Both the position numbers and the translations under genes were made by a program. Shown here in pieces: positions 5,216 to 21,259 of a stretch of DNA of 64,000 bases. The DNA comes from Methanococcoides sp. LMO-2 (GTDB taxonomy: Archaea > Halobacteriota > Methanosarcinia > Methanosarcinales > Methanosarcinaceae). Under the pieces are notes generated by a model. The model worked only from the letters and a program-made list of their open reading frames with translations, was not told the DNA's origin and did not search any database. Position 1 is the first letter of the stretch. Each line of letters starts with the position of its first letter. The stretch covers positions 248,001 through 312,000 of the forward strand of contig NZ_JBCAUS010000006.1 in the NCBI RefSeq assembly GCF_038432375.1. The letters run 5' to 3'.

Positions 5216-6225
5216 AAATCTTACTTGTAGAATTTTTATGTTGTATTTTTATATTGTTATTAGATATTAGTGATGGTGATTCAGGGTCATAATCACATAT
5301 AAATGTTGTGAGTTTTTCCCTGCATAAAACTTAGGCACATAATAAACCAAAGTTGTCATGCATCTACATCACGAGTACCAAATAACGATTTTTATGTACA
5401 CTAATAAGAGTATTGTGTACACTTAAGTTGAGAATTATGTAGATATTTTTCTGAATAATGCGCATGAAATGAACACACTTTTCGACTATATTTAGAAAGG
5501 ACAGTAGATATTCAAACGGACCAGCTCACTAAATAAAATAATTAGAATAAAATACAGAAGTGGAGGGAAAATTAGCCATATTAATGATTGAGTCAAAGAA
5601 TAAAAGCATCAATACCAATAACAAGGAAAAACTCTCGATTAATACTTAATATGTATAGGCATTGGCCCCCTTCTAGGGCAGCATCATTATAATGATGAGA
5701 AAGATTGTATGAGTCTTGAAAGTTTTGGCCGCTTACATAAGCAGATAGAGCAGTTGAGGCACATCGAACAATATGAAAGATTTGAGAGATACAATTTACA
5801 AAGAAAACATATTACTTCAACTTAGGAAAGGACCAACGACCACATCGTGTGAAATAGTCAATTGTCAATGCCATGTTTTTCCCATACCACGTTCAAAATG
5901 GAGAGAACCAATTTCCTTAAATATTTTTATAACCCATAATATAAAGGGTTAAAGGGGTAAGTCTGACAAATTGAGAGATGGCATGCCCGATATGTGACAA
6001 ACAGTAGTTGAGCACAAAAGTGTGACCAAAAAAACCTGCAAGATACATCAGGGTTTATTGGAAAAGCATGAGCAATACTTCACACTATATATTAGTGCAG
6101 GTTTGAGAGTCAAGTTCTCGTGATAGATAGTAGGATCGTGACCCATCTGACAAGAATATCGTCGAGGGTACATTAGTCAACATATAATAAGGAAAGGATG
6201 TAAACGAGGCATCCGATGAGATCAG
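5216..6225. other. A+T-rich 1-kb region without a convincing gene; one 38-codon frame
   Basis: No long frame on either strand. A short plus-strand frame (5709-5825) encodes a charged, helix-prone 38-residue peptide beginning MSLESFGRLHKQIEQL and ending at TAG. It has no good ribosome binding site and TAG is otherwise unused as a stop here, so it may be a decayed remnant, but I could not match it to a transposase. A small inverted repeat (AACCC at 5931-5935, GGGTT at 5946-5950) is visible. The region separates the surface-protein pair from the glycan locus and may hold the promoter of the plus-strand genes starting at 6226. Confidence 0.4.
5246..5255 (-). promoter_or_regulatory. TATA box for the dockerin protein gene
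   Basis: Minus strand AATATAAAAA, about 44 nt before the ATG at 5206; gives a predicted short leader of about 18 nt. Confidence 0.4.
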
Positions 6226-7269
6226 ATGATACCTAATAGCACATTGATTGAAAAGCTGAAAGAAGAAAAGGAACTATGGGATCTTTTCACAAAAAAAGAG
6301 GAATACAATCCCCCTATTCTTGATGAATATGAAAGATTCCCCTACTATTTGAGCAGTTCCCGAGACATCTTCGAACCCAAGGTCTCAAAATATCTGATCG
6401 AAAATGGTTTTAAGCCGGAATACCCGGATGGAAAGGAATTCGCCGTTTGTCTGACGCATGATATTGATGTAATTAAAGAGAGCAATTTTAGATATGCATT
6501 AAATTCTTTCAGAGCTGTTACCAAAGGAAATATCAAAGAAGCACTAAGAAACTTCACCTACGCAATAAACAAAAGAAGCCACCCATACTGGAACTTCCGG
6601 GAGATAATTAAGTTGGAAGAACAGTATGGAGCTACATCAAGTTTTTACTTCCTTGCACTTGAGCCTGGGGAACAGAATTATGACTATGACCTGCAGACCC
6701 TCAGGGACGACATAAGATATATAGATGCCAGAGGTTGGGAAGTAGGGCTCCATGGTGGTCACAGATCATACAACAATTATGAAGACCTTTACAAAAAGAA
6801 AGAAAAGCTTGAAGCTGTTCTTGGGAAAAACATAATCGGGTATCGGAACCACTACTTAAGATTCAGGACTCCTGAAACCTGGGAGTTACTTAGTAAAGCC
6901 GGTTTCAAATATGACACAACTTTCGGATATAACGACTGTGCAGGATTCAGAAATGGTATGTGCCATCCGTTCAGACCGATAAACCTGAAAACAGGAAAAG
7001 AGATCGATATCGTGGAGATCCCATTGACGATAATGGACTGTACACTTCTCAGGGATTATATGAGACTAGACTTCAACGGTTCATGGGAAATCACAAAGAA
7101 ACTAATCGACTCTGTTGCAAAATACAACGGTGTAATTACAATACTCTGGCACAACACATACATGCTGGACGAAAATCTGGAATTCTACAAAAAAATCCTA
7201 AACTATTGTTATGAAAAGGATGCATGGATGGCCAGTGGAAAAGATATGACCGAATGGTGGGAACAATGA
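6226..7269 (+). CDS. Polysaccharide deacetylase family protein (NodB/CE4-like)
   Basis: Product of 347 residues. CE4-type motifs are recognisable: LTHDIDVI near residue 80 for the catalytic Asp and metal-binding Asp, LHGGHRS near residue 184 for the two metal-binding His, and GYRNHYLRF for the motif-3 Arg. The enzyme would remove acetyl groups from amino sugars during glycan assembly. There is no signal peptide, so it acts in the cytoplasm, consistent with work on nucleotide-sugar or lipid-linked precursors. Its stop overlaps the start of the next gene (ATGA), so the two are translationally coupled. The neighbouring locus makes surface polysaccharide. Confidence 0.85.
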   Translation: MIPNSTLIEKLKEEKELWDLFTKKEEYNPPILDEYERFPYYLSSSRDIFEPKVSKYLIENGFKPEYPDGKEFAVCLTHDIDVIKESNFRYALNSFRAVTKGNIKEALRNFTYAINKRSHPYWNFREIIKLEEQYGATSSFYFLALEPGEQNYDYDLQTLRDDIRYIDARGWEVGLHGGHRSYNNYEDLYKKKEKLEAVLGKNIIGYRNHYLRFRTPETWELLSKAGFKYDTTFGYNDCAGFRNGMCHPFRPINLKTGKEIDIVEIPLTIMDCTLLRDYMRLDFNGSWEITKKLIDSVAKYNGVITILWHNTYMLDENLEFYKKILNYCYEKDAWMASGKDMTEWWEQ

Positions 7270-8264
7270 GTTCAGAGATGAGAGTCAGGGAAATTGGTCC
7301 TGATGAATACGAACTCTGGGATGAGATGGTTGAAATTTCCCCATACGGAACAATATTCCAGAAAAGCAATTGGTTAACAATATGCAAGGATTCGTTCAAC
7401 TTCGACCTGAAAATGTATGGCTGTTTTCATAAAGACGAGTTGGTCGGAGGATGCTCCCTTTTTAGTTACAGGGTTAGAAGAATATTCAGGGTAGCATCAT
7501 CTTACTGCAACATGACCCCCTATGGAGGCATTCTGGTAAAAAGATCAGCAAGTAAGAAAGTAAGAAATCAAGAAGAGTTCCAAAACAATGTTTTGAAGAA
7601 TATCCTGAAACACATCGAAGAACAGGGATATGATAGTGTTTCGATATCAAATCCCCCTGATTTCATAGACACCAGGCAATTTTCATCCAATAAGTGGATC
7701 AAAGATATTAGGTATTCTTACTATTTTGACCTGAGGGAGGATATTGAAACAAGAATGCCAAAGGGATTGAAGGCGATTATTCGTAAGGCTAATGAAAATG
7801 GGATCCTGGTTAAAAAAGAGGATGACCTCCAGCGTTTTTACGAGCTTATTAACCAAACGTATGAAAGGCAACAACTAATACCACCTGCACAAATGAATTT
7901 TTATGAAAAAATAATGGATTTCTTACATAAAACCCATCAAGGGGAAATGTGGATTGCAGAAATGCCCACAGGAGAAGTTGTAGCCGCAGAAATAATCATT
8001 TGGGATAACAAAAGAGCCCATAGATGGGCAGCTACTTCAAATCCGGATCTGAAAAGCCATAATGCAACATCTCTATTACTGCACAATATTTTTCAGGATC
8101 TTAAGAGCAGAAACTTTAAAGAGATAAATTTAATGAGTGGTAATACCCCAAAACTGACTAAATTCATAACAGGATTTAATCCGGAATTGGTACCTTACTA
8201 CGTAGTAAGCAGACATTCAACAAAATTTGATGTATCCCTACATATAATAAATTATATTAGATGA
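7266..8264 (+). CDS. FemAB/GNAT-like acyltransferase
   Basis: Product of 332 residues. The ATG at 7266 overlaps the preceding stop by four bases and begins MSSEMRVREIGPDEYELWDE; an in-frame upstream start at 7224 would lie inside the deacetylase gene and is rejected. The protein shows the double-GNAT layout of the FemAB/peptidoglycan-bridge family: an N-terminal half with the PYGTIFQKSNWL region and a C-terminal half with AAEIIIWDNKRAHRWAA. Family members transfer aminoacyl or acyl groups to amino sugars. Paired with a deacetylase, it could acylate the freed amine; this is inference. It converges on the flippase gene with only an oligo-T stretch (8267-8285) between them, which probably serves as terminator. 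Confidence 0.75.
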   Translation: MSSEMRVREIGPDEYELWDEMVEISPYGTIFQKSNWLTICKDSFNFDLKMYGCFHKDELVGGCSLFSYRVRRIFRVASSYCNMTPYGGILVKRSASKKVRNQEEFQNNVLKNILKHIEEQGYDSVSISNPPDFIDTRQFSSNKWIKDIRYSYYFDLREDIETRMPKGLKAIIRKANENGILVKKEDDLQRFYELINQTYERQQLIPPAQMNFYEKIMDFLHKTHQGEMWIAEMPTGEVVAAEIIIWDNKRAHRWAATSNPDLKSHNATSLLLHNIFQDLKSRNFKEINLMSGNTPKLTKFITGFNPELVPYYVVSRHSTKFDVSLHIINYIR

Positions 8265-8275
8265 AATATTTTTTC

Positions 8276-9724
8276 TTATTTTTTTGCTGCATTTATAGCA
8301 CCTAGTAATTTAGACCTTAGAGTATGATCCAGATAGATCACTACAATATAATAAGCAATTGAAAGCACCATGGAAAGGAATAAAATTACATATATTGTAG
8401 CTGAAAGGTAATCAACTAGGACCAAAGGGATGGAAACTAAAATTGCGATAAGCAGATATTTTACAAAATGTCTGACCTCATGTGTCAATTGAACACCAGA
8501 TATTCTTAAAAGATAGAAATTTGCACAGCTCCATAAAATAACACCAACAATGGACAATAACATAAGTCCGAGGATTGGGTCATTATAACTTCCCCCTATA
8601 AAAAGTGTAATAAATATTGAACAAATGATCAGGATATTAAAAATAAGTTCAATATTTTGCTTTTCAAGTATGTCGAAAATGGAAGATATCGGGGAATACA
8701 TAAATCTTATAAATAGCCAAGGAGCAAGTATTTTTGCATAAATTCCTGCAGAATACCACTCAGCCCCTAAAAAGAAGGTGAACAGGTCCTCACCGACGAT
8801 CATAAACACGATAAGTGGAAATGCCCCTATGAGAATCAATTTCCTGTGTACTTCAGTCACTAATTCTTTGAAGTTTCCATTTTCATTTTTAACTTCACTT
8901 GCTTTCTGGAAGAAGACCTGACTGGTAGCACCACCTATTAAAGTTACAGGCAAAGCCAGTATTAAATTCGCAAACGAATAATGGCCCACTATTGCAGAAG
9001 TGAAATAGAACGCAAGCATAAAAGGTGGAAGCTGAAAAGAGAACGTGTTTACAAACAGAGAGCCCATGGAAAATTTCGGGAATCTTTTATACCTAATGGC
9101 CAGTTCTTTCATCCTGTGCACTGAAACCTTCCTGAAATACTGGATATCAGATTTGAAGTAGCCCAGCATCAGGATATTTGCCAGAAAAAAACCTGTCAAG
9201 TAACCAGTGATCAAGCCCATTGGAGAAGGATTGTAAGATCCGATCCCTACCTGGGACACTCTTGAACCTAATGAATTTGCAATACGTGATTCGGCAACAA
9301 CCCCAAACCGGATCCTGCGAGATGTCCAATAGTTCAGCACGTTGAACAGGCCACTTAAAAAAACGACTATCGGCAAAAGAAGAAGATAATCTGCAAGATC
9401 AGGAGTATTTAAGAAACCTGAGATCTCATCAGATAGCGGGATGAATATGAGTCCGGATGCAATAGAAGTGATTACTAATAAAATGAAACATAACGAAACA
9501 ATATTTGCAGAATCCTCGTTCTTTTTAGGGAGCATTATTGCAAGGTGATAAGTAAGACAGGATATAATTGCAATAATACTTGCAATTGATAAAAATAACT
9601 GAAAAACTCCAAAATCTTCCGGAGAATAAAGTCGGGAAATAATAGGAAAAAGTAATATTCCAATAATTTGGGCGATCATACTCCCTGATACTAATTTCAT
9701 AATATTACGGATAAAATCTGACAT
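8276..9724 (-). CDS. Wzx-type polysaccharide flippase (MATE/MOP superfamily)
   Basis: Product of 482 residues with about 12-14 hydrophobic segments across its whole length and the N-terminal pattern SGSMIAQIIGILLFPIISRL plus LYSPEDFGVFQLFLS, typical of O-antigen/teichoic-acid flippases. It would move a lipid-linked saccharide from the inner to the outer face of the membrane. It is the last gene of the minus-strand glycan cluster. The stop is TAA in a T-rich stretch that also fits an archaeal terminator. Confidence 0.9.
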   Translation of the reverse strand: MSDFIRNIMKLVSGSMIAQIIGILLFPIISRLYSPEDFGVFQLFLSIASIIAIISCLTYHLAIMLPKKNEDSANIVSLCFILLVITSIASGLIFIPLSDEISGFLNTPDLADYLLLLPIVVFLSGLFNVLNYWTSRRIRFGVVAESRIANSLGSRVSQVGIGSYNPSPMGLITGYLTGFFLANILMLGYFKSDIQYFRKVSVHRMKELAIRYKRFPKFSMGSLFVNTFSFQLPPFMLAFYFTSAIVGHYSFANLILALPVTLIGGATSQVFFQKASEVKNENGNFKELVTEVHRKLILIGAFPLIVFMIVGEDLFTFFLGAEWYSAGIYAKILAPWLFIRFMYSPISSIFDILEKQNIELIFNILIICSIFITLFIGGSYNDPILGLMLLSIVGVILWSCANFYLLRISGVQLTHEVRHFVKYLLIAILVSIPLVLVDYLSATIYVILFLSMVLSIAYYIVVIYLDHTLRSKLLGAINAAKK

Positions 9725-9790
9725 TGAATCACACCCATTTTAGAATAATACAACAATGAATCAATATGATTTATAGAAGGTACACTAAAT

Positions 9791-10855
9791 TTAGCTGGAG
9801 CCCTCAAGCACAGAGCATATTCTTTCACAGGCATCTCCGGATCCGAACACGTTACCTTTCATACCTGAACCTTCAAACCCATTAATAGCATCCATAATCA
9901 TATTGCAATCTGATCCAACTAGCACATTCCATCCATCATTCACGGTTTCTACCCATTCGGTATTATCACGCATTGTAATACAGGGAACACCAAGCATATA
10001 GGCTTCCTTCTGGATTCCACCGGAGTCAGTAAGAACCTTCCTGGAATTGGACATGAGTTTTAGCATGTCAAGATAACCAACAGGAGATATGACACTCACA
10101 TTTTCACAAAGATTATCCCAAAGTCCATATTTAATGAGATATTTTTTAGTCCGGGGATGAACAGGAAAAACAACATGTTCATCCACACTGCAAAAGGCTT
10201 TCACAATGGAAGATAGATTTTCAATGCTATCCGTATTTGAAGCACGGTGTACAGTTGCAACCATAAAATCCTTAGGAGAAAGCTCCAGATCATCAAGTAT
10301 CGAGGATCCTTCTTCTGCTATCCTTATATTGTACTGCAGTGCATCCATCATCACGTCACCAACATTGTATACGCCTTCAGTAATGCCTTCGTTTCCAAGA
10401 TTTATCACTGCTGTTTCCGTAGGACAGAACAAAATATCTGAAATATGGTCCGTAACTACGCGATTGATCTCTTCTGGCATAGTTCTGTCAAACGAGCGAA
10501 GACCGGCCTCGACGTGAGACACAGGAATATGACGCTTGGAGGCTGCAAGAGAACCTGCAATAGTAGAGTTGGTATCACCATAAACCAGGACCATATCAGG
10601 CTCTTCACTAATGAGAATCTTTTCGATCCCGATCAGCATATTACCTGTTTGCTCACCCTGTGTAGCGGAACCGATACCAAGATTATGATCCGGTTCCGGA
10701 ATGCCAAGTTCTTTGAAGAAAACATCAGACATATCAGGATCATAATGTTGCCCGGTGTGGACAAGTATCTCATCGTGAGATTTTCTAAGTTCACGGGAAA
10801 GTGGAGCACATTTTATGAACTGTGGCCTGGCACCGATAACGGATATTATTTTCAT
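9791..10855 (-). CDS. wecB: UDP-N-acetylglucosamine 2-epimerase (non-hydrolysing)
   Basis: Product of 354 residues starting MKIISVIGARPQFIKCAPLS, the family signature. The ATG at 10855 has GGGTGTC upstream; the longer in-frame start at 10906 adds a non-conserved tail. Further motifs: VHTGQHYD, VYGDTNST, HVEAGLRS, the PEEINR loop, TVHRASN and TDSGGIQKEA. It interconverts UDP-GlcNAc and UDP-ManNAc in the cytosol, feeding mannosaminuronate or related sugars into surface glycans. No UDP-ManNAc dehydrogenase (WecC) lies in the window, so the downstream enzyme must be encoded elsewhere. Confidence 0.93.
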   Translation of the reverse strand: MKIISVIGARPQFIKCAPLSRELRKSHDEILVHTGQHYDPDMSDVFFKELGIPEPDHNLGIGSATQGEQTGNMLIGIEKILISEEPDMVLVYGDTNSTIAGSLAASKRHIPVSHVEAGLRSFDRTMPEEINRVVTDHISDILFCPTETAVINLGNEGITEGVYNVGDVMMDALQYNIRIAEEGSSILDDLELSPKDFMVATVHRASNTDSIENLSSIVKAFCSVDEHVVFPVHPRTKKYLIKYGLWDNLCENVSVISPVGYLDMLKLMSNSRKVLTDSGGIQKEAYMLGVPCITMRDNTEWVETVNDGWNVLVGSDCNMIMDAINGFEGSGMKGNVFGSGDACERICSVLEGSS

Positions 10856-10965
10856 GATGACACCCATGTTGACAAAAAAATTGGCAATGTAATAGAGATT
10901 ATGCATTTATTTAGATTTAAAAGTATCATTATTGTGCATTGAGAAGTACTGCAATATAATTCCAG

Positions 10966-11538
10966 TTATGAATTTTCTTCTTTCACCAGTAGATCTTCGG
11001 AACCTTTGTCGCTTATTTTTCTAGCCGGAACACCCGCAATTGAAATATTTGTTCCCAAAAATGATTTATTTACAACAGAATTTGCACCAATTGCAATTCC
11101 ATCCGCGATCTCTATGTCACCAAATAACTTGGCACCCGGACCAATATAAACATTGTTTCCAATACGAGGTGCTAAATTTGAATAGCCTGCCTTGGTCCCG
11201 ATGTTTACACATGTGTGTATTCGACAATTCGATCCAACTCTGGCATTGGTATTTACAACAATGGTCCCAACATGAGCAATGCTTAAACCAGGCCCAAAAA
11301 CATTCTTAGGTATGGTGAATCCCAATTTCACGCTCATTGCATAGTACCTCCATTTTAGAAATAGGACATATGGTTTCCAGAATATAAATTTTTTACAATT
11401 GTGATAGTATTCTACTTTCCTTAACAATCTCTCAAATTTCCATATATCATCAGCAAAAAAAGGCCTTTTACCAGTTCTCCCCAAAGCCACCTTATCTGCT
11501 TCTAAATAGGAATGATAATCCTGTTTTGTTTTGATCAT
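10966..11538 (-). CDS. Hexapeptide-repeat acetyltransferase (serine acetyltransferase/colanic-acid type)
   Basis: Product of 190 residues. The C-terminal half (about residues 85-175) shows left-handed beta-helix hexapeptide repeats: IAHVGTIVVNTNARVGSNCR, then INIGTKAG-like and IGNNVYIGPGAKLFG turns. The ATG at 11538 has GGTGG five bases upstream; an alternative ATG at 11550 would overlap that site. Members O-acetylate sugars or serine using acetyl-CoA. Placed between WecB and a glycosyltransferase, sugar acetylation is the likelier role. Confidence 0.8.
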   Translation of the reverse strand: MIKTKQDYHSYLEADKVALGRTGKRPFFADDIWKFERLLRKVEYYHNCKKFIFWKPYVLFLKWRYYAMSVKLGFTIPKNVFGPGLSIAHVGTIVVNTNARVGSNCRIHTCVNIGTKAGYSNLAPRIGNNVYIGPGAKLFGDIEIADGIAIGANSVVNKSFLGTNISIAGVPARKISDKGSEDLLVKEENS

Positions 11539-11619
11539 CACAACCACCATTGTGTGAGGGGGTCCGAATTGTTATCGGAAATACCAATACAATTCGAAAT
11601 AATACAACATGCTCAACGC

Positions 11620-12795
11620 TCACAGATCTTCCAAAATTCCGGATTTTAGTACAATCTGTTCCCAATCAAATTCTTTTGCTAATATCTTGTTGTTCTGAGA
11701 CATTTCTGTACGCAACTCGGGATCACTAAACAAATACTCCACTCTGTCAGCCAGACTTTTAGGATTACCGGACTCATATTTCACATAATTGACATTTTCT
11801 TTCAAATGTCCGGGAATTCCTTCAATATCTGCAATTACCATTGGTTTCCCTGCTGCAAGATATTCGGATATTTTTCTATTCGAGAAAAAATCCTTCAATT
11901 TTGACATGTAAAAATCTTTATTGTACGGAACAATACAAACATCCATCCGTTTTAATATTGCCATTACTGAACTGTATTCAAGACGACCGGTCAGAATTAC
12001 ATTTTCCTTTTGACCATACTTTGCGAAGATTTTCTTATAATCGTAACCCTGCCCAACGATCACAACAACCACATCTTTCAGATAATCAACTGAATCACAA
12101 ATATCATCTATTTTCATTACCTGTTCCCAGTTTCCGATAAAACCTATAACTTTCTTACTTTTCGGAATATCCAGAGGACACTCAGAGTCATTAGATTCGA
12201 TTTTTCCCACATCGACCCCGTTTGGCAGATAAATACACTTATGAGCATATTCTTTAATCTGCTCTTTTACACCGGCACTTACCACAATAATCCTGTCAGA
12301 ATTCTTCAAAAGCACCCTTTCAGAGAATTTAGCGATATAGCCTCTTAAAATACGTTTTCGTTGATACAGTTCAAGATGGTACTTACCATGAAAATCATAG
12401 TATATCTTTGTATTAAGCAGTCTTAAAAATGGATACAATACAATACAGTCATAACCCCTGATGATAACGTAATCGATCTTTTTCGTAAGAAGGAAATGAA
12501 ATACTTTCATGGACATCTGGAATCTAAATGAAATTCCTTTCAACAGAGACAATTTCCCCGCAATAGGTATAATGGGTTTAACCTGAATAAGATTCTCCAG
12601 AACTACTTCGTTCTGTTCGTTCTTCTGCAACATTAAGTAAGTATCGGGCAAATATTTTTTGAGCTCCTGGAAAACATGCAAAGCTCTTGAGGACTGGACG
12701 ATGCTATAAGATGCCTTCGTCTCCATAAAAATGATCAGACCTTTTTTCGAGATCTGTTTCTGATCATTCCCGAACGATCGCCTTGAAGATTTCAT
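11620..12795 (-). CDS. Glycosyltransferase family 4 protein
   Basis: Product of 391 residues with the GT-B fold layout of family 4. The C-terminal half has the nucleotide-sugar site: VIGFIGNWEQVMKIDDI, an ILTGRL segment, and a region SEYLAAGKPMVIADIEGIP in place of the usual EAMA-G-PVVA motif. The ATG at 12795 overlaps the stop of the gene before it (ATGA), supporting this start and coupled translation. It probably adds one sugar to a lipid-linked oligosaccharide on the cytoplasmic face; donor and acceptor cannot be read from sequence. Confidence 0.85.
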   Translation of the reverse strand: MKSSRRSFGNDQKQISKKGLIIFMETKASYSIVQSSRALHVFQELKKYLPDTYLMLQKNEQNEVVLENLIQVKPIIPIAGKLSLLKGISFRFQMSMKVFHFLLTKKIDYVIIRGYDCIVLYPFLRLLNTKIYYDFHGKYHLELYQRKRILRGYIAKFSERVLLKNSDRIIVVSAGVKEQIKEYAHKCIYLPNGVDVGKIESNDSECPLDIPKSKKVIGFIGNWEQVMKIDDICDSVDYLKDVVVVIVGQGYDYKKIFAKYGQKENVILTGRLEYSSVMAILKRMDVCIVPYNKDFYMSKLKDFFSNRKISEYLAAGKPMVIADIEGIPGHLKENVNYVKYESGNPKSLADRVEYLFSDPELRTEMSQNNKILAKEFDWEQIVLKSGILEDL

Positions 12796-14708
12796 TGAAC
12801 TGCCTCATAGATATCAATTGCTGAGTTTGAATAGACCTTGTTGTTGGCCTTCAAATTTGAATTTAAGTAGCCCCATTCTAAACTATCATCCCCTCTGATC
12901 ATAGTCCTATCAAATAATAGTCCTCTATCTAACTCTTCATTTCTCAAAATGAAATAACCATCTGTGACAGTAAAATTTGTAACATCGAAGGAATCAATTC
13001 TATAATACTTAATCCCAAGGTTGTCGGTTTCACTAAATCTGCGATTCTCAAATAACCTGGAAGTAGGAGTATCCGTATATAATATTGAGTTATCCGGAAC
13101 GGAATCAAAAACATGGTCAAAACCTATCAGCTCATCTGAATAGAAATAGGTCCTGCTGGCAATAACCTCATCATATTCCGGACTGCCGCCTATCAAAGAC
13201 GGATATACGAATCCCGTCAAAAGGATTGAGATTATCAAACCGGCATACAAGACCCTTTTCCCCTTTGATGACAGATAATTGTAAAAAAAGAGAATGCCAG
13301 CAGCCATTGAAAAAGCTATGAATGGACTTACAAGTAAAATAAAACGGTCAAATCTAAAAAGGGTCATTACATCCCAGAGAGTTTGTAGCGGATTTGGCAG
13401 ATATAGTGGTAAGGAAAACAGAGTAACCATAGTAAAAACTGCAGCGTATTTATTACCATATTTCCAGAACATTGCCCCAATTCCAATAAAAACAAAGAAT
13501 GTGACGATCATCGTGTCAACATTTTGAGAGAGAAATATCCACTCTAACCCAGTCTGAATGTCCTGCTTTATTGTAAGTTCACCAGATATATGGGTCGCCC
13601 TGGAGGTCAATGCAAGAAATGTAAAGGAATAAGCAACATAAAACCAATAGGTTAAGAACGTTACAGTTAGTAAAAGAATGTAATTGTTATCGTGGAATTT
13701 GGATTTTAGACCCGTCAAATTGGTTAACAAAAGTTCAGAAACTAAGAACAATATCATTATGGCAATTATCTGAGGAGTTGACACCTGATGAACAATTACT
13801 ATAAAGCTGGCAACAACTACGCCCAGTATTTTCAATCGAGAATCATTCATCTCTGAATTCTTATAGATCAGATATATCAGCATTAAAAACGCAACAAATG
13901 CTGCAACTCTGGTGACCATATACATCCCATAATAAACTACTATACTCAGGGTTGAAAACAGAGCAACTGAAAGTAAAGACAATTTTACGTATTTAGTAGT
14001 GCTTAAAAAAATGCAGTATAAGAAAAGCACTACAACTGTGAATACTAAAGGAGCTACTACAAAAAATGCTGTCGTGATATTCAGATTTAGCAGATATGAA
14101 GTCTCCGATATCAGAATATGAAATAAAGGAAAATTCGTATAGGTTACACTTAGATATTCAGGGATTGTGTGCCCGGTAAGATAGGTTACCTGAGACATGA
14201 AAAGATGTGGTAATATGTCAGTGGCACCATAATAAAGATGGTCCTTTAAGGTAAAACTATAGATCAAATTCACCATGCATAGAATGATTTCAGATAGAAC
14301 CAGATATTGATTTACTCCTTTAGAGAGAATCTGGACAAAAATAATCGTATAAAGTAAAGTCATCATTACAAAATAGTACCAGGGCCTGACTGATGAAATA
14401 AGTACAACGACCAAACTCAAAGCATAAAGAATGAAGAATATGCTAGATAATTGCCTTTGCTCAAGTTTCATTTCAAGATCGGAACTTGGAATTTTCGTTC
14501 CACTCCCATATATTCTGGTCAGCGCTATTGCTGCAACAATACCCGGAATTGCTATAGCAAGACCCCTGATAGCAAAATCGGGCCTCCCTATCACAAACGC
14601 AAAACCCAAACCTCCAAGAACAACAACAACTACTAGATAGGGCCAGATAAGACCAAAAATTTCAATCAGCGTTTTGTCCCTGTTTGTTATTGATCTTAAT
14701 AAGTTCAT
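12792..14708 (-). CDS. Large polytopic membrane protein of the glycan locus (GT-C-like, function unassigned)
   Basis: Product of 638 residues. The ATG at 14708 has GGGTG just upstream; the longer start at 14750 has no ribosome binding site. About 12-13 hydrophobic helices fill residues 15-520, followed by a roughly 110-residue extracytoplasmic tail with alternating strands (SILYTDTPTSRLFENRRFSE). This architecture resembles GT-C transferases such as PMT-type enzymes or polysaccharide polymerases, but I see no definite catalytic motif. A sugar polymerase (Wzy-like) or a lipid-phosphosugar-dependent glycosyltransferase are both possible. The coding sequence is notably A+T-rich. Confidence 0.7.
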   Translation of the reverse strand: MNLLRSITNRDKTLIEIFGLIWPYLVVVVVLGGLGFAFVIGRPDFAIRGLAIAIPGIVAAIALTRIYGSGTKIPSSDLEMKLEQRQLSSIFFILYALSLVVVLISSVRPWYYFVMMTLLYTIIFVQILSKGVNQYLVLSEIILCMVNLIYSFTLKDHLYYGATDILPHLFMSQVTYLTGHTIPEYLSVTYTNFPLFHILISETSYLLNLNITTAFFVVAPLVFTVVVLFLYCIFLSTTKYVKLSLLSVALFSTLSIVVYYGMYMVTRVAAFVAFLMLIYLIYKNSEMNDSRLKILGVVVASFIVIVHQVSTPQIIAIMILFLVSELLLTNLTGLKSKFHDNNYILLLTVTFLTYWFYVAYSFTFLALTSRATHISGELTIKQDIQTGLEWIFLSQNVDTMIVTFFVFIGIGAMFWKYGNKYAAVFTMVTLFSLPLYLPNPLQTLWDVMTLFRFDRFILLVSPFIAFSMAAGILFFYNYLSSKGKRVLYAGLIISILLTGFVYPSLIGGSPEYDEVIASRTYFYSDELIGFDHVFDSVPDNSILYTDTPTSRLFENRRFSETDNLGIKYYRIDSFDVTNFTVTDGYFILRNEELDRGLLFDRTMIRGDDSLEWGYLNSNLKANNKVYSNSAIDIYEAVQ

Positions 14709-14816
14709 AAGCACCCGGTCCCCAACCTCAATACTCCTAAAATGTTTCAATTGCGTTTAGTTGATTTTCCCTGATTATAATTTGTTATGGAAAGTATATT
14801 AATTAGCACTAAGAAA

Positions 14817-15992
14817 TTATATATTACAGTTAAGATTGACATAGATGTCTGATATTTGTTCTGCTATATTCTCCCAACTATAGCGTTGTGCATGGTCAAG
14901 GATCTTATTCTCATCCCAATTTACGTCTAATGAATGAGATATTTTTTCTGCCAGATCCAGGGAATCACCGGGTTTTACAAGAAAGCCAAGATCATCGGAC
15001 GTTATAATCTCCGGAACACCGCCTACACTTGTTCCCACAAATGGCTTACCACAAGCCAGACTTTCAACCAGAACTGTGGGGTTGCCTTCATTCAGGCTTG
15101 GCAACACAAATATATCACAGGCATTCATCCAGAGAGGTACTTCATGGTGTGGTTTAAGGCCCACTATTTTCACATGATCCTGTAAATTGGAGGACAAGAT
15201 CTGTTTCTCTAATTTCTCCCTCAGTACACCATCACCCACAATATAGCACAACACATCATCCCTTTTGGAGACAACTTTTTCCATAGCTTCTATCAAGTAG
15301 GAATGGCCCTTCACTTCGCCATATGGATTCCCAACATTAAGAATGATCTTTTTGTCTTTCGACAAACCAAGTTTATCCCGGCATTCCTGTTTGTCCAGAG
15401 GATAGAACTTCTTTTGATCATAGCCATTGGGGATATGGTAGACTTTCTCCAGATCGATGCCTACATCCCCCATCAGAAAGATATCACCTTTCCTTACACG
15501 GATTATTGCATCGGACATTTGCCATGAATGAATAAATATCGGATCTTTCTCATCAATCGCTTTTTGAAATGTACCAGAAGTATGTTCAGTAATAACCACA
15601 GGCACTCCGAACTTTTTCTTAACTTCCACTGCAACTGCACCAGAAGGCCAGGTGAAATGGGCATGAATTATATCAAATTCAATGCCCTTTTTTTCCAGAA
15701 ATTTAAGAACTGCATGAGATTCAAGTTTTACCCAGAACTCCTTTTGATATTTATAAAAAAAGGGCAGATTGAAGTATTTTGGAAAGAAAACGTGAACATT
15801 GTCATAAGAGTAATCTTCAAAATGCGTCTTCCTGATATACTCCATGCCATAAGCAACAGGTGAGATTACGTAGACATTTTCGAAATGCCTGCGAATATAT
15901 TTCAATTGCTCTTTTACAAATATCTCTACAACGTAGGTATCCGAAAAGTTAGGGAAATTATTAGTCAGGATCAACAGATTTCTGAGTGACAT
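14817..15992 (-). CDS. Glycosyltransferase family 4 protein
   Basis: Product of 391 residues. The N-terminal domain has HAHFTWPSGAVAVEVKKKFG and the donor-binding domain has ILNVGNPYGEVKGHSYLIEA, VGDGVLREKL, and FVLPSLNEGNPTVLVESLAC with the paired E residues of the E-x7-E motif. These are hallmark GT4 features and suggest a retaining transferase acting in the cytosol. Its ATG shares one base with the stop of the upstream gene (TAATG), so it is co-translated with the CapK-like gene. Confidence 0.92.
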   Translation of the reverse strand: MSLRNLLILTNNFPNFSDTYVVEIFVKEQLKYIRRHFENVYVISPVAYGMEYIRKTHFEDYSYDNVHVFFPKYFNLPFFYKYQKEFWVKLESHAVLKFLEKKGIEFDIIHAHFTWPSGAVAVEVKKKFGVPVVITEHTSGTFQKAIDEKDPIFIHSWQMSDAIIRVRKGDIFLMGDVGIDLEKVYHIPNGYDQKKFYPLDKQECRDKLGLSKDKKIILNVGNPYGEVKGHSYLIEAMEKVVSKRDDVLCYIVGDGVLREKLEKQILSSNLQDHVKIVGLKPHHEVPLWMNACDIFVLPSLNEGNPTVLVESLACGKPFVGTSVGGVPEIITSDDLGFLVKPGDSLDLAEKISHSLDVNWDENKILDHAQRYSWENIAEQISDIYVNLNCNI

Positions 15993-17323
15993 TATCTCAA
16001 CTCGTTAATAACGAACTTATATTTCCCTGCCTTCGTTAATTCAATAGAATCAACAAATTCGAACTCTACATCCCATGAGGAGGATTTGGATTTTATTGCG
16101 TCCCTGATAAGAGAGAGATTGTCCGGATTGAAAGTATCTTCAACTACCAGTTTTATCAGGATCTTATCGATCTGTTTCTGAATTACCTGATAATTTCTGA
16201 TACCGTCATCGTGTTGCCAGAAGATATACATTAAGAAGTACCCATGAACCTTCTTACCTTCCGGAGTAATGAACATATCCACCGAGCGTCCCATAACCTC
16301 TTTTAATAGTTTTGATCCTCTGCCACAACCACATTTATCCTCAATAATATGGCCCATATCCCCTGTACTATACCTTATAAAAGGCATGGCATAATTGTGT
16401 AAACTTGTAGCTAGGATAGTTCCAATACCCTCTGACATCTGAGATCCATTATCATCAACAACTTCCATGATGCTTCGCTCTGTATCGATATGCAGGCCAT
16501 TATGTTCAGAGCATTCATATGCACCCACCCCACCATCGTTCAGTCCGTAAGCATCATAGACCTCACAGTCGAAAACATCACTGATATGAGCACGCATATT
16601 CGGAAACAGTTTTTCTGCAGTCGTATAGACCACAGGAATTTTAGGCAGGTCAATACTATTTTCCTCAACAAATGATGCAAATGTATCTATGGATGAGGGA
16701 TATGCACGGATTGATTTGGGATTGAATGAGCGTATTATATTCGCATATTTGTACATGTCTTCGTTGCTCATATCAAAAGAAGATAACCTGCGAATATTGC
16801 GGGCAATTTCGTGTACTTTGTTTGTAATTCGTGAGCTACCATCAATACCAAGGGACATACCTGCCAGAAATACCATCTTATCCCCAAGTTCATAACCTCC
16901 ATATCCCCATCCGCGATAAAGCATTACTCCTGACATAAAACGATCATGTTTTAACAATCTGAATGGGAAGGGAGTACCTGTAGAACCCCCTGTGGCCAGA
17001 GAATAATATTTCATTTTGTTCAGATTAGCTGGCTTGAAGTCCTCCCAGTTCTCTCTGATGATATCTTTGTTCAAAACAGGAAGTTTCTCCAGGTCTTCCA
17101 GTTTTTTGATGTCTTCAGGTCTTAGATCCAGACTTTTGAATAATTTATGATAATAAGGAACATTATCATAAGAGAACGATATCAGCTTTCGAAGCTGAGC
17201 TTCCTGATCCGATTTCAGATCTTGATAAGAGTACCATTGTGACATGACAGCAGAATTGTACATAGATAAGAAACGATAGTCGCCCAGCATATGTGCAAAT
17301 TTGAACAATGGAACATGAAACAC
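15992..17323 (-). CDS. CapK/PaaK-like adenylate-forming enzyme
   Basis: Product of 443 residues related to phenylacetate-CoA ligase and capsule protein CapK. The P-loop is YSLATGGSTGTPF, the adenylate-binding motif lies around YDAYGLNDGGVGAYEC, and YSTGDMGHI is the conserved Asp region. These enzymes activate a carboxylic acid as an acyl-adenylate. A methanogen relative makes coenzyme F390, but the position inside a glycan cluster favours activation of an acid for modification of surface sugars. The substrate is not predictable. A cysteine-rich CGCGRGSK segment could bind zinc. Confidence 0.8.
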   Translation of the reverse strand: MFHVPLFKFAHMLGDYRFLSMYNSAVMSQWYSYQDLKSDQEAQLRKLISFSYDNVPYYHKLFKSLDLRPEDIKKLEDLEKLPVLNKDIIRENWEDFKPANLNKMKYYSLATGGSTGTPFPFRLLKHDRFMSGVMLYRGWGYGGYELGDKMVFLAGMSLGIDGSSRITNKVHEIARNIRRLSSFDMSNEDMYKYANIIRSFNPKSIRAYPSSIDTFASFVEENSIDLPKIPVVYTTAEKLFPNMRAHISDVFDCEVYDAYGLNDGGVGAYECSEHNGLHIDTERSIMEVVDDNGSQMSEGIGTILATSLHNYAMPFIRYSTGDMGHIIEDKCGCGRGSKLLKEVMGRSVDMFITPEGKKVHGYFLMYIFWQHDDGIRNYQVIQKQIDKILIKLVVEDTFNPDNLSLIRDAIKSKSSSWDVEFEFVDSIELTKAGKYKFVINELR

Positions 17324-17350
17324 AGATTAAACCCCCTTATGAGATACAAC

Positions 17351-18394
17351 TTACTTCTTAGAATAATTTTCCACAAATTCCACCATGAATTTCGTAACAT
17401 CGATCTTATCAGCTAACAGGACATCCCTTTTCTGTCTTCCTTTTTCTTTCAGATCAGGATTCTGCAATAATTCCAGTGCCTTTTCCAATGAGTCTTTACC
17501 CATCGTATTTTCATCATAGAAGTTGTAGACCAGATCATACAGTTTCTCTTCTTCGTCCGTATAGCCCCTCCCCGCGTAATCACAGAAAATCGAGTGAGTA
17601 CCCAGGACTGCACATTCTGAGGCCATGGTCGAACTGTCCCCATAAAGCAAAGTCGCATAATACAACAGATGATGGATCTTTTCCGGGGAAACACTAATCC
17701 TGTACTCCTCAAGCTCAGGAGGCAGTTCGTTTTCAGAAGTGATCAGGACACGACCGTATTCTTTTAGTTTATCAACAGCAGTAAATTTGTCTTCCAGGGT
17801 CAATGTCCTGTGACCTTTGTCATGACTTGCCTCCCAGGAAACAAATCTCAGGATAATGAAAGGATCATTCTCGGTAAGTCCGAGTTCACTGAGAATCTCC
17901 GGATCCGGAGTGAAGTAATCCGGATGAAGGTATGCCAGCTCATGATAGCCATTATATCGCACCTGTTTTTCCCCAAGATCAAGCCTGTAACATGACGGAG
18001 TGCATATAACGGATGCAAAAGGATCAGTTATCGTGTGTTCTATTTTTGCATGCTCGGTATCATCAAAAACGATGGAAGGTTTTCTGATGATCTTTCCCAC
18101 ATGAGCAACATAGGCATTTCCTACTCCGCCTATCAAAATATCAGGTTTAAATTTCCTTGCGATCCGGTACAGATTATATTCGATCTTCAGCAACTCTGTG
18201 GCTTTTGAGAATAAGGAAGGTTTTGCACTTCCAACAACATCATATTCAAATCCATATGCTTTAAGTAAATGTAAAGAAACGTCCTTATCAACCGTAGTAA
18301 TCCTACATGCGTGACCCCGTTCTTCCAGAACCCGGATAGCATTTTTGAACAAATGGATCTGGCCAGGATGTGCCATATTGAATAATATCCTCAT
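17351..18394 (-). CDS. DUF354 family protein (glycosyltransferase-like)
   Basis: Product of 347 residues beginning MRILFNMAHPGQIHLFKNAI. The ATG at 18394 overlaps the preceding gene's TGA by four bases, so the longer upstream start is rejected. The DUF354 signature includes the N-terminal HPGQ-HLF pattern, a central VFDDTEHA segment and a SSTMASECAVLGT donor-site-like motif, which resemble GT-B enzymes such as MurG and LpxB. It probably transfers a sugar or makes an activated sugar, but no member has been assigned a reaction that I can name. Confidence 0.8.
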   Translation of the reverse strand: MRILFNMAHPGQIHLFKNAIRVLEERGHACRITTVDKDVSLHLLKAYGFEYDVVGSAKPSLFSKATELLKIEYNLYRIARKFKPDILIGGVGNAYVAHVGKIIRKPSIVFDDTEHAKIEHTITDPFASVICTPSCYRLDLGEKQVRYNGYHELAYLHPDYFTPDPEILSELGLTENDPFIILRFVSWEASHDKGHRTLTLEDKFTAVDKLKEYGRVLITSENELPPELEEYRISVSPEKIHHLLYYATLLYGDSSTMASECAVLGTHSIFCDYAGRGYTDEEEKLYDLVYNFYDENTMGKDSLEKALELLQNPDLKEKGRQKRDVLLADKIDVTKFMVEFVENYSKK

Positions 18395-19161
18395 TTTCTC
18401 ACCACAGATAAAACCTTCTTCACCAGATTGACAGCCACATCCATACTGCAATATAAACCCCAATCCACCATATTCAATGACCAGCGTTCCGGATGTGCAA
18501 GAAGATAAAGGTTCTCCAGTTCACCACTTTTGATAAGATCGATCAGATCATCCGTCGTATCGGCAGTGAAATCTTCAGTCTTACCGGGGATAAAATCCCT
18601 CAAACTGTTCCTAGTACTCCAGCTTCTTCCTGTATCTGAAAAATAATTAAGTTCTGGCCCCACAGAGAGATAGGCCTCACCAATAATTCCATAATCCTTA
18701 AAGTCATAAGATTTCCAAAGGTCCCTGTTATCGTATTTTGAGAGCGGCCTTCCATGCATACAGATGGTTTTCACCTTGTAGACGTCATCAAAGTCAGCCA
18801 GATGTGCCTTGAACAATTGAACCCCCTTTTCAGGGTCACCATTTGCTTCGCTTAATGTCTCATAATGATAACCGATCTCGTGACCCATGTCACGTATCTG
18901 TTTCATTATTTCCGGCTTGAACACACTTTTTATCGATCTGAAGTAGTATGTAGCCCTGATACCCAGCTCATGCTCTATCCGTGCGGTTTCCAGTGAATGT
19001 CCCGGCATCCGGTCAACATCGTGTCGCATCAGCACAAACCTGTCAGGATGATCACCACTCATGTATTCTGCCATTGTAACAGTGGGATAATCTATGGCTA
19101 TTGCCTCACAGAGAAGTCGGAATTTACTGATAGTGAAATCATGTTCATCAATCCTCAACAT
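18391..19161 (-). CDS. Polysaccharide deacetylase-like protein
   Basis: Product of 256 residues. Motif MRHDVDRMPGHS near residue 45 matches CE4 motif 1, EIGYHYETLSE supplies the metal-binding His, and LLAHPERWS near the C terminus matches the last catalytic motif. The second His of motif 2 is not obvious. It lacks a signal peptide and is co-translated with the DUF354 gene. It is distinct in sequence from the deacetylase at 6226-7269, suggesting two different N-acetylated substrates. Confidence 0.8.
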   Translation of the reverse strand: MLRIDEHDFTISKFRLLCEAIAIDYPTVTMAEYMSGDHPDRFVLMRHDVDRMPGHSLETARIEHELGIRATYYFRSIKSVFKPEIMKQIRDMGHEIGYHYETLSEANGDPEKGVQLFKAHLADFDDVYKVKTICMHGRPLSKYDNRDLWKSYDFKDYGIIGEAYLSVGPELNYFSDTGRSWSTRNSLRDFIPGKTEDFTADTTDDLIDLIKSGELENLYLLAHPERWSLNMVDWGLYCSMDVAVNLVKKVLSVVRK

Positions 19162-19201
19162 CAGAGATCACCACACAGCAATGTCTCAAACAAAAGTGAG
19201 C

Positions 19202-20752
19202 TCATTCGATCTCACCTTCTACAGACCGGGAACCTGAACCCCTCAGATCCTTATCAGACTCCTGCATATCGAACAGCATTGCGAACAGCAGGAACTGGGT
19301 TCCTGATATAAGTATCAGGGCATCCAAGACCAACAGGTTCGAAGATACCGGCCATTGCATCAGAGTAGCTATGATCATTGAAAGACCGAACAACACGCCC
19401 ACAGGAATGAACGCCATGCCTAGGATGTAGAACAGGACGAGTGGATGGAAGTTGAGTATCATGTACTTCATCTTCAGCCTCCAAAGGAACTTCCTGAACA
19501 GCATCATAGACACTTTGCTAATGTAAGGACCGTACTTGATCGTTGATTTTTCCTCACCGTATTTGGCAGGCATGACAACATCAAGGGTCCTGAAACCAAA
19601 AGCATTCAATCTCACAAGTATGTGGTTGCAGTAACCATAGTACGTGTAGATCTCATCCAGGCCGATCTCCCCCAGTGCTTCCTTTGAGATGGCAGTATAA
19701 CCGTTCTGCGGATCCATGACGTGCCAGTATCCACTGGCTATTTTCGTGATGAACGTGAGCATCGAGTTACCCAACAGGCGAAATCCGCTCATGCCGCCAC
19801 GATACTCCGTACTGAACAGGCGGTTACCTTTGGTGTAATCCCCTTTGCCCTCAATAATAGGCATCAACAGTTTTGGCAGCTGGGCAGGGTTCATCTGGTT
19901 ATCCCCTCCCATGACCGCAACGACATCCATCTCTTCTTTCAGCGCCTGTTTGTAGCCATTGACGATTGCAGCACCCACACCTTTATTGGCCTCATGCGTT
20001 ATCACGAACAGCCTGGAATCGTCCAATGCATCAAGGATCTTTGCAGTATTATCAGTACTCGCATCATTTATCACATATATCCGATCAACGTAATGGGGAA
20101 TTCCATCAATGGTCGCTTTTATCAGCTTCTCTTCATTATACGCAGGCACTACCACACCTATACGTTTACTTGCCAGCAACTCCCTTTTGATCGGATCGAT
20201 TATCTTGATAGGTACCTCACGTACCCTGAAACCGGCATTGATAGCATCATCTATCAACTCGAGCTCGATCATATTGTCGCCCTTTGTGAACCTGAAAATC
20301 TCGAGCGTCTTCGAAGAATATGCACGGAATCCACTGGACATGAAAAACTGACCCTTGCCCCGGGATCCAAAATCCTCAAACGTAGTACCAAAACCAGTGA
20401 CCGATGAAGTAACATAAGCACCGTTCACAACATCTGCATCCCCGGAAAGCACAGGATCCAATACTGCAGGTATGTCGTCAGGATTATGAAAACCATTAGC
20501 ATAGAGAGTTACAAGTACAGATGGGTTTATTTTTCTGGCTTCTTCAAAAGCTGTTTGCAAGGCAGCGGCCTTTCCCAGGTTATCCCCGTGCTGGATCACT
20601 TTTACACCCATATTCCTGGCAATATAGGCTGTCGCATCACTGCTCCCATCATCAACAAGAATTATCTGATCCACATAGAGCTTCGTTCTCTTAATGATGT
20701 GCTTGATATTAACCTCTTCATTATATGCAGGAATGACGGCTACAACATTCAT
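19202..20752 (-). CDS. Tandem GT2 glycosyltransferase with two C-terminal membrane helices
   Basis: Product of 516 residues. The ATG at 20752 has GAGGTG at ideal spacing; a GTG two codons earlier would overlap it. Two GT-A domains follow one another, each starting with a PAYNEE motif (near residues 8 and 204). In the first domain the expected DADG-type motif is replaced by YANG (VTLYANGFHNPDD), so it has probably lost metal binding. The second has VMGGDNQMNPAQL and the MDPQNGYTAIS acceptor-loop motif seen in polyprenyl-phosphate sugar transferases. Two transmembrane helices (about 436-460 and 473-495) anchor the C terminus. It likely makes a polyprenyl-phosphate sugar or starts the glycan. 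It is the promoter-proximal gene of the minus-strand cluster. Confidence 0.85.
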   Translation of the reverse strand: MNVVAVIPAYNEEVNIKHIIKRTKLYVDQIILVDDGSSDATAYIARNMGVKVIQHGDNLGKAAALQTAFEEARKINPSVLVTLYANGFHNPDDIPAVLDPVLSGDADVVNGAYVTSSVTGFGTTFEDFGSRGKGQFFMSSGFRAYSSKTLEIFRFTKGDNMIELELIDDAINAGFRVREVPIKIIDPIKRELLASKRIGVVVPAYNEEKLIKATIDGIPHYVDRIYVINDASTDNTAKILDALDDSRLFVITHEANKGVGAAIVNGYKQALKEEMDVVAVMGGDNQMNPAQLPKLLMPIIEGKGDYTKGNRLFSTEYRGGMSGFRLLGNSMLTFITKIASGYWHVMDPQNGYTAISKEALGEIGLDEIYTYYGYCNHILVRLNAFGFRTLDVVMPAKYGEEKSTIKYGPYISKVSMMLFRKFLWRLKMKYMILNFHPLVLFYILGMAFIPVGVLFGLSMIIATLMQWPVSSNLLVLDALILISGTQFLLFAMLFDMQESDKDLRGSGSRSVEGEIE

Positions 20753-20895
20753 TGCCACACCTCGCCCCTGTTTTTAATAGAAATAATAAAGTTGCACATC
20801 ACCCACAACCTCCCAGATGAATATTTCTAAATAATGTTATATAAATGCGTACGTCAACAGAATCATCTAATTGGAACAATTACAAAAAGACATAA

Positions 20896-20926: not shown

Positions 20927-21259
20927 ATGGGACGAGAATTTTCAGACATGGATAAGAAGGTCTTCAACAAGCTTGCACCAGAGAACGGCGGGACACATAT
21001 GTCCGAGATGGGACACCCATATCCATTCATACTTAGACCGATATCCCACAAGATCGCAGAGGATGCGGATGACTTCAGGGAGAGGCTTGAGAGACTTGAC
21101 AGTGAGGAAGCGGAATACCTTGCAGGGCTTGCAATGGAAGGGAAGGAAGACATCCGGTCCCTTGATGAGGATGATGTGGATTCCTTTTTTGATATGGTAA
21201 GAGAGAAGGTCTCCGAGGAGCGGGAAAAGGAGCTTCGGATCAAGCTGGGGATATTATGA
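20927..21259 (+). CDS. Small conserved acidic protein, function unknown
   Basis: Product of 110 residues, rich in Glu and Asp, mostly helical. The N-terminal portion carries a distinctive GGTHMSEMGHPYPFILRPIS stretch followed by two amphipathic helices. I do not recognise a named domain. Its TGA overlaps the ATG of the endonuclease IV-like gene (ATGA), so the pair is translationally coupled and likely functions together, perhaps in DNA repair; that is inference from position only. Confidence 0.7.
   Translation: MGREFSDMDKKVFNKLAPENGGTHMSEMGHPYPFILRPISHKIAEDADDFRERLERLDSEEAEYLAGLAMEGKEDIRSLDEDDVDSFFDMVREKVSEEREKELRIKLGIL

Follow-up and report, generated by a model that had tools for sequence, protein, structure and literature searches.

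Among the closest described systems is a pathway for a linking sugar, Wbp/Vim, in Porphyromonas gingivalis and Tannerella forsythia. According to the passages cited here, VimE of P. gingivalis is thought to strip a diamino uronic acid of an N-acetyl group, which VimA would replace with serine; T. forsythia uses glycine instead, and a swap of VimA swapped the amino acid (PMC7468200). The same passages describe how the linking sugar joins cargo proteins cut by the PorU sortase to A-lipopolysaccharide (A-LPS), and note VimA relatives beside bacterial exosortases (PMC7468200). Adjacent genes for a VimE-like deacetylase and a VimA-like transferase are found in the methanogenic archaeon Methanococcoides sp. 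LMO-2 (family Methanosarcinaceae), in a stretch of 64,000 nucleotides (the window; G000:C6:248001-312000, where G, C and L numbers denote genomes, contigs and loci, and G000 is the 2.31-Mb window genome). With a probability of roughly 0.6, we read the surrounding genes (6226-20758) as a Wzx/Wzy-type surface-polysaccharide locus at a swappable chromosomal site, whose products are predicted to exchange the N-acyl groups of amino sugars before export.

The locus contains 12 intact glycan open reading frames (ORFs), identified by ORF calls and by Pfam and NCBIfam profile searches. Ten are minus-strand genes, the first encoding a double GT2 and the last a flippase, and two on the plus strand, deac1 and FemAB, converge on these. 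A sequence-only reading of this DNA had named two dissimilar deacetylases, a FemAB-like and a CapK-like enzyme, a flippase, WecB and transferases; all are intact ORFs where that reading had placed them. The flippase and the glycosyltransferases (GTs) fit a Wzx/Wzy polysaccharide locus. The genes are as follows.

6226-7269, plus strand: deac1, a VimE-like CE4-type N-deacetylase, probably cytosolic (NF053580, motifs)
7266-8264 (alternative start 7224), plus strand: FemAB/VimA-like transferase, probably aminoacyl (PF13480, PF02388)
8276-9724, minus strand: Wzx/MOP-type flippase (PF13440, E-value: 2e-31, 110 bits, cut-off 23; 10 hydrophobic segments)
9791-10906, minus strand: WecB, a non-hydrolysing UDP-N-acetylglucosamine (UDP-GlcNAc) 2-epimerase supplying UDP-N-acetylmannosamine (UDP-ManNAc) (TIGR00236, 344 bits, cut-off 210); the start is perhaps near 10855 rather than 10906
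10966-11550, minus strand: hexapeptide acyltransferase, kin of serine acetyltransferase/EpsC/WcaB (NF041874, 63 bits against a cut-off of 150, so not an equivalog)
11620-12795, minus strand: GT4 glycosyltransferase a, GTa (PF00534, E-value: 2e-19)
12792-14750, minus strand: large membrane protein with 14 hydrophobic segments, a possible Wzy-type polymerase by position and topology only; no Pfam or NCBIfam match in profile searches
14817-15992, minus strand: GT4 glycosyltransferase b, GTb (PF00534, E-value: 5.8e-39)
15992-17323, minus strand: CapK/PaaK-type adenylate-forming, acid-activating enzyme (PDB 4r1l, NF045666)
17351-18463 (start probably 18394), minus strand: DUF354 protein, GT-B/UDP-GlcNAc 2-epimerase fold (PF04007, E-value: 1.2e-18)
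18391-19161, minus strand: deac2, a second, dissimilar CE4-type deacetylase, probably cytosolic (motifs, profile match to deac1)
19202-20758, minus strand: double GT2 with a DPM-like N-terminal half and an AglJ-like C-terminal half (two PF00535 stretches; 2 hydrophobic segments)

ATGA overlaps are present at three junctions (deac1/FemAB, where the stop codon of deac1 shares bases with the FemAB ATG at 7266; deac2/DUF354, where the start at 18394 would overlap the deac2 stop; and Wzy/GTa), and CapK and GTb overlap by one base (TAATG). The P. gingivalis pair is needed for a linking sugar whose N-acetyl group seems to have been exchanged for serine (PMC7468200), and the adjacent VimE-like and VimA-like genes with their ATGA overlap support N-acyl exchange. 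FemAB is coupled to deac1 while CapK lies in the deac2-DUF354 operon, and so the locus probably comprises two modules, a VimE-VimA-like deac1-FemAB pair and a deac2-DUF354-CapK group, and two modifications are likely. The sequence-only reading had suggested an N-acylated amino-sugar polymer in which the acid activated by CapK replaces an acetyl group. N-deacetylation followed by acylation with another acid survives from that suggestion as the best reading, because unrelated amide-forming enzymes substitute for one another beside these deacetylases; the single pathway is not supported as stated, and gives way to the two probable modules. Since deac1, FemAB, CapK, DUF354 and deac2 all lack hydrophobic segments on a simple hydrophobicity scale, their chemistry is predicted to be cytosolic and to precede export.

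FemAB can be assigned to the FemABX family by sequence (PF13480: 61 bits, cut-off 22; PF02388: 40 bits, cut-off 24). A profile of 16 FemAB relatives matches only eight PDB sequences at E-values up to 0.1, including 6snr (E-value: 5.1e-21), and these are lipid II glycyltransferase, FemX and aminoacyl-tRNA-dependent peptide synthase. FemAB relatives draw on aminoacyl-tRNA and need no CapK product. The neighbour of deac1 is FemAB in two genomes, G000 and G024, and an ATP-grasp-type protein of 392-401 residues in two others, G020 and G025. Seven of the nine proteins scanned from this ATP-grasp group match ATP-grasp models at E-values of 0.001 or better, six of them above the curated cut-off; those of G020 and G025 resemble the L120 protein, a clearer member of the group (BLAST E-value: about 1e-18). 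Elsewhere in the window genome, three more FemAB-type genes (G000:C2:181436-189290; L080 and L081) adjoin beta-helix/NosD surface-protein genes. Two of these share 42-44% identity with the window FemAB, and neither a deacetylase nor DUF354 was found in the 37 kb around them.

Three mutually unrelated amide-forming families (FemAB, ATP-grasp and CapK) were counted across relatives. All six versions of the site that were compared have a deacetylase with at least one of the three. Beside deac2 there is FemAB, ATP-grasp, a methyltransferase or nothing, followed usually by DUF354 and often by CapK. A partner is present in 38 of 39 tabulated deacetylase loci (39 of 41 with L144 and L165), a proportion biased by the many loci fetched via CapK or FemAB matches; where the coordinates of an exosortase, deac2 or DUF354 match had led to the locus, 18 of 19 have a partner (18 of 20 with L165). 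L165 (deac2 with no partner, at a 3.6-kb contig end) was left out of the table, as were L144 (DUF354-deac1-FemAB) and L145 and L146 (DUF354 alone). Twenty further loci were chosen by hand from unfetched deac2 matches, mostly avoiding those with a known nearby CapK match, although earlier matches had already been seen in some of their genomes. An amide-forming family is present in 14 of the 20, versus 1 of 24 controls (Fisher p = 4e-6), or in 15 (p = 9e-7) if a 41-bit ATP-grasp match about 5 kb away on the other strand in L179 is counted, both p values ignoring kinship and the shorter controls. DUF354 is encoded by 17 of the 20 and absent from the fetched stretches of L186, L188 and L190; it is thus common beside deac2, not obligatory.

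Proximity within 6 kb was counted as well. DUF354 lies near 44 of the 52 closer deac2 matches, and P0002-like FemAB matches are near deac1 in 35 of 57 cases and near DUF354 in 33 of 57. These neighbour counts used 91 deac1 matches (the last 22 listed were dropped), 57 FemAB matches (2 dropped), 52 closer deac2 matches with 37 termed deac2b (2 dropped), all 139 DUF354 matches, 33 CapK matches (2 of 3 pieces of one G075 gene dropped) and the top 46 of 88 exosortase matches, together with G084:C10, a lower match picked for its adjoining deac2b. Because unrelated amide-forming chemistries share one slot, re-acylation of the amine freed by the deacetylase is suggested.

Neither deacetylase has a Pfam match at 0.001. 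Deac1 matches NF053580 (VimE; E-value: 2.9e-40) with 138 bits, below the equivalog cut-off of 440 and so indicating homology only; deac2 has no NCBIfam match either. The residues H78-D79-x-D81, E172-x-G-L-H176 and H309 of deac1 are invariant across the aligned sets, as are R46HDVD50, H94E95xGxH99, C134MHG137 and H223P224 of deac2 in 11 sequences. Both proteins thus keep the HDxD and E-x-G-x-H motifs, which we take to be those of CE4. The two profiles align with each other (hhalign E-value: 8.7e-6; probability 83%). In PDB, the deac1 profile matches two sequences (1.5e-4 and 0.0053), both named deacetylases. That of deac2 has five weak matches (E-values: 0.08-0.4), four of them named deacetylases and the fifth, 7bly, named only by a contig; a structure model from the single deac2 sequence has a low predicted local distance difference test (pLDDT) score of 38. 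By motifs and homology, deac1 is classified as a CE4 member, and deac2 is probably a more distant CE4-type protein. In L083 (771-2456) and, by similarity, L098 (2504-4189), deac2 is fused to a TIGR03006-like deacetylase domain (PF01522/DUF3473), placing two deacetylases in one chain. A second deac2 copy within L083 (G020:C1:2304619-2305392) has one in-frame TAG and is perhaps a broken gene; in this family the codon may, we presume, be read as pyrrolysine.

CapK is similar to the phenylacetate-CoA ligase of PDB 4r1l (E-value: 9.8e-26) and, below the cut-off, to NF045666 (E-value: 8.6e-41). The residues T111-x-GSTG116, TGD320-322 and GKYK433-436, taken here to be adenylation residues, are kept by at least 11 of the 12 copies. 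An F390 synthetase, the identity that the sequence-only reading had set against its own proposal, is not indicated at the family level: the score against TIGR03335 is 93.3 bits (cut-off 458.7), and that against the PaaK equivalog is 112.7 (cut-off 646.3). By these curated cut-offs, CapK is classified as neither PaaK nor F390 synthetase. Of 13 copies (counting L006 and L095, which are the same locus), eight lie directly after DUF354 and nine directly before a GT gene. The hexapeptide acyltransferase is a candidate user of the CapK product. The DUF354 sequence profile matches nothing in PDB at 0.1. A DUF354 structure model built from three sequences (pLDDT 71) is most similar in Foldseek to UDP-GlcNAc 2-epimerase 1f6d (E-value: 6.4e-13, TM 0.60), which predicts an enzyme of the GT-B/UDP-GlcNAc 2-epimerase type, the model fitting a transferase, an epimerase or a hydrolase equally.

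The window was also compared with five genomes of the same genus (G018, G019, G020, G024 and G025), as the sequence-only reading had proposed, and a fixed site with exchanged content was found. The flanks on both sides are common to all, and the loci between them differ. By its flanks G019 is nearest: across ten genes of the right flank (21256-30046), identity is 93-100% with G019 (mean 97.6) and 82-96% with G024 (mean 90.8), and the six left-flank genes common to all three genomes have means of 97.5% and 92.2%, respectively. G024, farther by its flanks, nevertheless keeps all 12 locus genes in the same order (71-94% identity), whereas no match was found in G019 for eight of the 12 (blastp 1e-10, half length, 56 kb), namely deac1, FemAB, the flippase, WecB, the acyltransferase, both GT4 enzymes and Wzy. 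The G019 CapK and DUF354 are 71% and 48% identical to the window copies, and the site holds other genes there, including two distant FemAB genes. Because the identity patterns of G019 and G024 conflict, the locus and its flanks must have different histories, which supports horizontal replacement of the locus at a fixed site and bears out the earlier suggestion of a transferable region. The exchanged block exceeds the range first considered, as variability extends to the genes between 5215 and a point roughly 3.3 kb outside the left edge of the window. At the same site in G019, L099 (8727-13892) encodes CapK together with a hexapeptide transferase and enzymes resembling PseC and PseB (scores under the cut-offs), and this alternative locus probably makes a different amino sugar.

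The A+T-rich composition noted earlier is confirmed. Guanine-plus-cytosine (GC) content in 2-kb windows is 36-41% for starts from 5001 to 17001 and 48-53% for starts from 21001 to 29001. At third codon positions, 11 of the 12 locus genes have a GC fraction (GC3) of 0.31-0.45, the GT2 gene being the exception at 0.53. The nine right-flank genes scored have 0.47-0.65, whereas the left neighbour, at 0.40, is like the locus genes. Low GC agrees with horizontal replacement and is no proof by itself. No tRNA was found in the window; the exchange is deduced from synteny, with no search aimed at mobile elements.

In the proposed model, every catalytic step, substrate and acid, and the polymer itself, is predicted from sequence. 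WecB and house-keeping enzymes would provide UDP-amino sugars, and the cytosolic deac1 and deac2 would each free an amine. FemAB, coupled to deac1, would then attach an amino acid, the donor probably being aminoacyl-tRNA as for its relatives. CapK would activate a second acid, probably as the acyl-CoA, and the sugar on which deac2 and DUF354 act would receive this acyl group, perhaps via the hexapeptide transferase. The GT2 and GT4 enzymes would assemble the unit on a polyprenyl carrier, after which the flippase would export it and the 14-segment protein would polymerise it. The double GT2 is probably the chain initiator on polyprenyl phosphate (TIGR04182: 146.6 bits against a cut-off of 325, so not an equivalog). 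Its N-terminal half carries 'YANGF', and the two-domain form is retained in relatives; a DxD-type motif would presumably be expected there, and this half may be non-catalytic.

Precursor genes are found elsewhere in the genome. A UDP-GlcNAc 3-dehydrogenase (512 bits; cut-off 450) is encoded beside a DegT aminotransferase (PseC-like, below cut-off) at C2:810157-812170, and therefore the genome can probably make UDP-3-amino sugars. Two nucleotide-sugar dehydrogenases are also encoded (TIGR03026: 323 and 488 bits; cut-off 190). Together with WecB, these enzymes make diamino and uronic-acid sugars possible, the substrate type named for VimE; that they feed the window locus is our inference.

Several observations weigh against the N-acyl exchange reading. 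FemAB scores only 38.9 bits against TIGR03019 (pepcterm_femAB; cut-off 260.35), deac1 is likewise far under the VimE equivalog cut-off, and the window FemAB alone matches nothing in PDB at 0.1. FemAB sequences are highly diverse, with three invariant columns among 16, and therefore they may vary in donor and acceptor. The ATP-grasp-type proteins from G020 and G025 themselves match Pfam ATP-grasp only at 0.013-0.04. Of the CapK matches, 15 of 33 have no DUF354 within 6 kb. The controls used above were mixed, 5 of the 24 being under 8 kb, and the same-genus loci are not independent. Five or six of the 20 further deac2 loci have none of the three amide-forming families (L178, L180-L182, which are of one genus, and L192; strictly also L179). 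A methyltransferase lies between deac2 and DUF354 in L094 and L178, and therefore the slot is not always one of acylation.

The partnerless deac2 loci would fit an ordinary exopolysaccharide, in which the deacetylases leave free amines for charge, FemAB merely tunes acetylation and CapK serves an unrelated modification. Such a pathway has a parallel in Caulobacter, where a single holdfast pathway is proposed to involve both the deacetylase HfsH and HfsK, a protein with Fem proteins as its closest solved relatives; the passages cited give the acyl donor as unknown (PMC5362036). On the other hand, the replacement of FemAB by ATP-grasp beside deac1 would be unexpected for an acetyltransferase, and the PDB matches of the FemAB profile are enzymes of the aminoacyl-tRNA type. 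We consider this explanation the strongest of the alternatives, though one with perhaps a chance in four.

A second alternative is that the product is an amine-bearing linking glycan that anchors proteins via ArtA or an unrecognised sortase, as relatives beside archaeosortase C (ArtC) may do. It has the PorU/VimA precedent and the bacterial VimA relatives cited above (PMC7468200) in its favour, as well as the following association. Matches to deac2b lie within 6 kb of an exosortase match in 29 of 37 cases (28 without G084:C10). All 11 loci fetched for deac2 and DUF354 near an exosortase match encode ArtC (316-446 bits; cut-off 100), and all 11 also carry FemAB, which was not a selection criterion. 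Gene order in these is deac2, FemAB, DUF354, with one or two genes between in some, and a PEF-CTERM protein is present in eight of the 11 stretches. Two of the 20 further loci, L194 and L196, lie outside the family and also have ArtC (with a weak score in L196), deac2, FemAB and DUF354. Exceptions are G008 (set present, deac2 diverged), G058 and G060 (ATP-grasp replacing FemAB), G039 (CapK and ATP-grasp), G057 (a distant sortase, with deac2 and DUF354 only) and G032 (the set and ArtC on different contigs). The stretches of G070, G065, G051, G109 and G010 have sortases scarcely matching ArtC and none of the set, and those of G002, G048, G104, G107 and G063 reach contig ends. An HtpX-like membrane metalloprotease gene adjoins ArtC in nine of the 11 loci (L115, L117 and L119-L125; assigned by cluster, three scanned).

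No sortase was found in the window locus, and the sole PF09721 match in G000 at 0.001 is ArtA (288 bits), ArtC not being found. In the FemAB tree, the window protein falls in the half that has no copy from an ArtC locus. The DUF354 proteins encoded in ArtC loci group apart, with full support, and a flippase together with several GT genes speaks for a polymer. An anchoring role for the window product is therefore improbable. For the ArtC loci themselves, we tentatively suggest, with perhaps a chance in four, that the deacetylase-FemAB-DUF354 set makes an aminoacylated, amine-bearing sugar or glycolipid, that ArtC anchors PEF-CTERM proteins via this amine, and that the window locus is a sortase-free relative decorating a polysaccharide, with CapK as a further acyl source. 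To our knowledge, the attachment partner of ArtC and of most exosortases has not been established. The exosortase partner is called an unidentified compound in the cited passages of PMC7468200. No link between an archaeosortase and FemAB or a deacetylase was met in the passages searched; Haft et al. 2012 may describe the ArtC neighbourhood. The association is the most promising finding, but lies outside the window: if the suggestion is true, it would supply the acceptor of an exosortase-type enzyme, and the conserved set beside ArtC is a concrete candidate for the attachment partner, testable in genetically tractable Methanosarcina.

The left edge of the window encodes two large, related beta-helix-type proteins (1-2065 and 2246-5215), whose kin lie beside many homologous glycan loci. 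The second is as follows.

2246-5215, minus strand: beta-helix protein, predicted secreted, with disaggregatase-associated, PKD, CBM9 and dockerin domains (PF08480, PF06452, PF18911, PF00404) and one N-terminal hydrophobic segment

Homologues of this protein are found at the same place in G024 (84% identity), G020 (74%), G018 (70%), G025 (42%) and G019 (32%), and it possibly acts on the polymer of the locus. A disaggregatase-associated domain next door, with homologues beside many related loci, might point to a methanochondroitin-like product, the genes for which are said in the cited part of PMC12369344 to be unidentified. We regard such a product as very unlikely: WecB points to ManNAc, the deacetylases and CapK would not be needed for a polymer of N-acetylgalactosamine (GalNAc) and glucuronic acid, and none of the 12 genes was recognised as UDP-GalNAc-forming. 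Least credible of all are the readings of CapK as the source of coenzyme F390 or as a catabolic aryl-CoA ligase that just happens to lie in the locus, since homology among CapK, PaaK and F390 synthetases is offset by the widely missed equivalog cut-offs, the one-base overlap with a GT gene and the recurrent DUF354 and GT neighbours.

Compared with known systems, the proposed N-acyl exchange locus resembles the Wbp/Vim pathway in its adjacent VimE-like and VimA-like genes, and differs in being archaeal, in falling below the equivalog cut-offs, in having no sortase and in the addition of deac2, DUF354 and CapK. No Wbp enzyme or WbpS amidotransferase was recognised in 6226-20758, and no TIGR03108 match was found in G000 at 1e-50. 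Membership of the Wbp/Vim system was rejected, as three tested features were not found. In seven g10 genomes (G046, G043, G064, G040, G049, G056 and G039), DUF354, deac1 and FemAB lie beside asparagine-synthase-type genes; the one scanned scores 512 bits on the model for asparagine synthase, above the cut-off of 267, and 424.5 on TIGR03108, below the cut-off of 816.9, so that a WbpS role for it is no more than possible. The window locus has no such gene.

The Caulobacter holdfast proteins HfsH and HfsK are similar in that a deacetylase and a Fem-related transferase are thought, in the passages cited, to modify an adhesive polysaccharide (PMC5362036), but belong to another organism and operon. 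The XrtA/PEP-CTERM exopolysaccharide loci share deacetylase, FemAB and GT4 families with the window locus (TIGR03006, TIGR03019 and TIGR03088, below cut-offs), but the window locus has no exosortase and its relatives have ArtC instead. Bacterial O-antigen and capsule (Wzx/Wzy) loci have a fixed site, swapped content, low GC and flippase and GT genes, as does the window locus, which differs in its AglJ-like double GT2, its N-acyl exchange set and its archaeal host. The fixed site is a hint that archaea swap whole glycan loci as bacteria swap O-antigen loci. That FemAB and ATP-grasp stand in for each other next to one deacetylase, while relatives offer CapK as a further choice, is a genomic hint of N-acyl exchange on archaeal surface sugars. 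The novelty of this locus would thus be its combination of Vim-like and XrtA-like parts with CapK and DUF354 in an archaeal polysaccharide locus.

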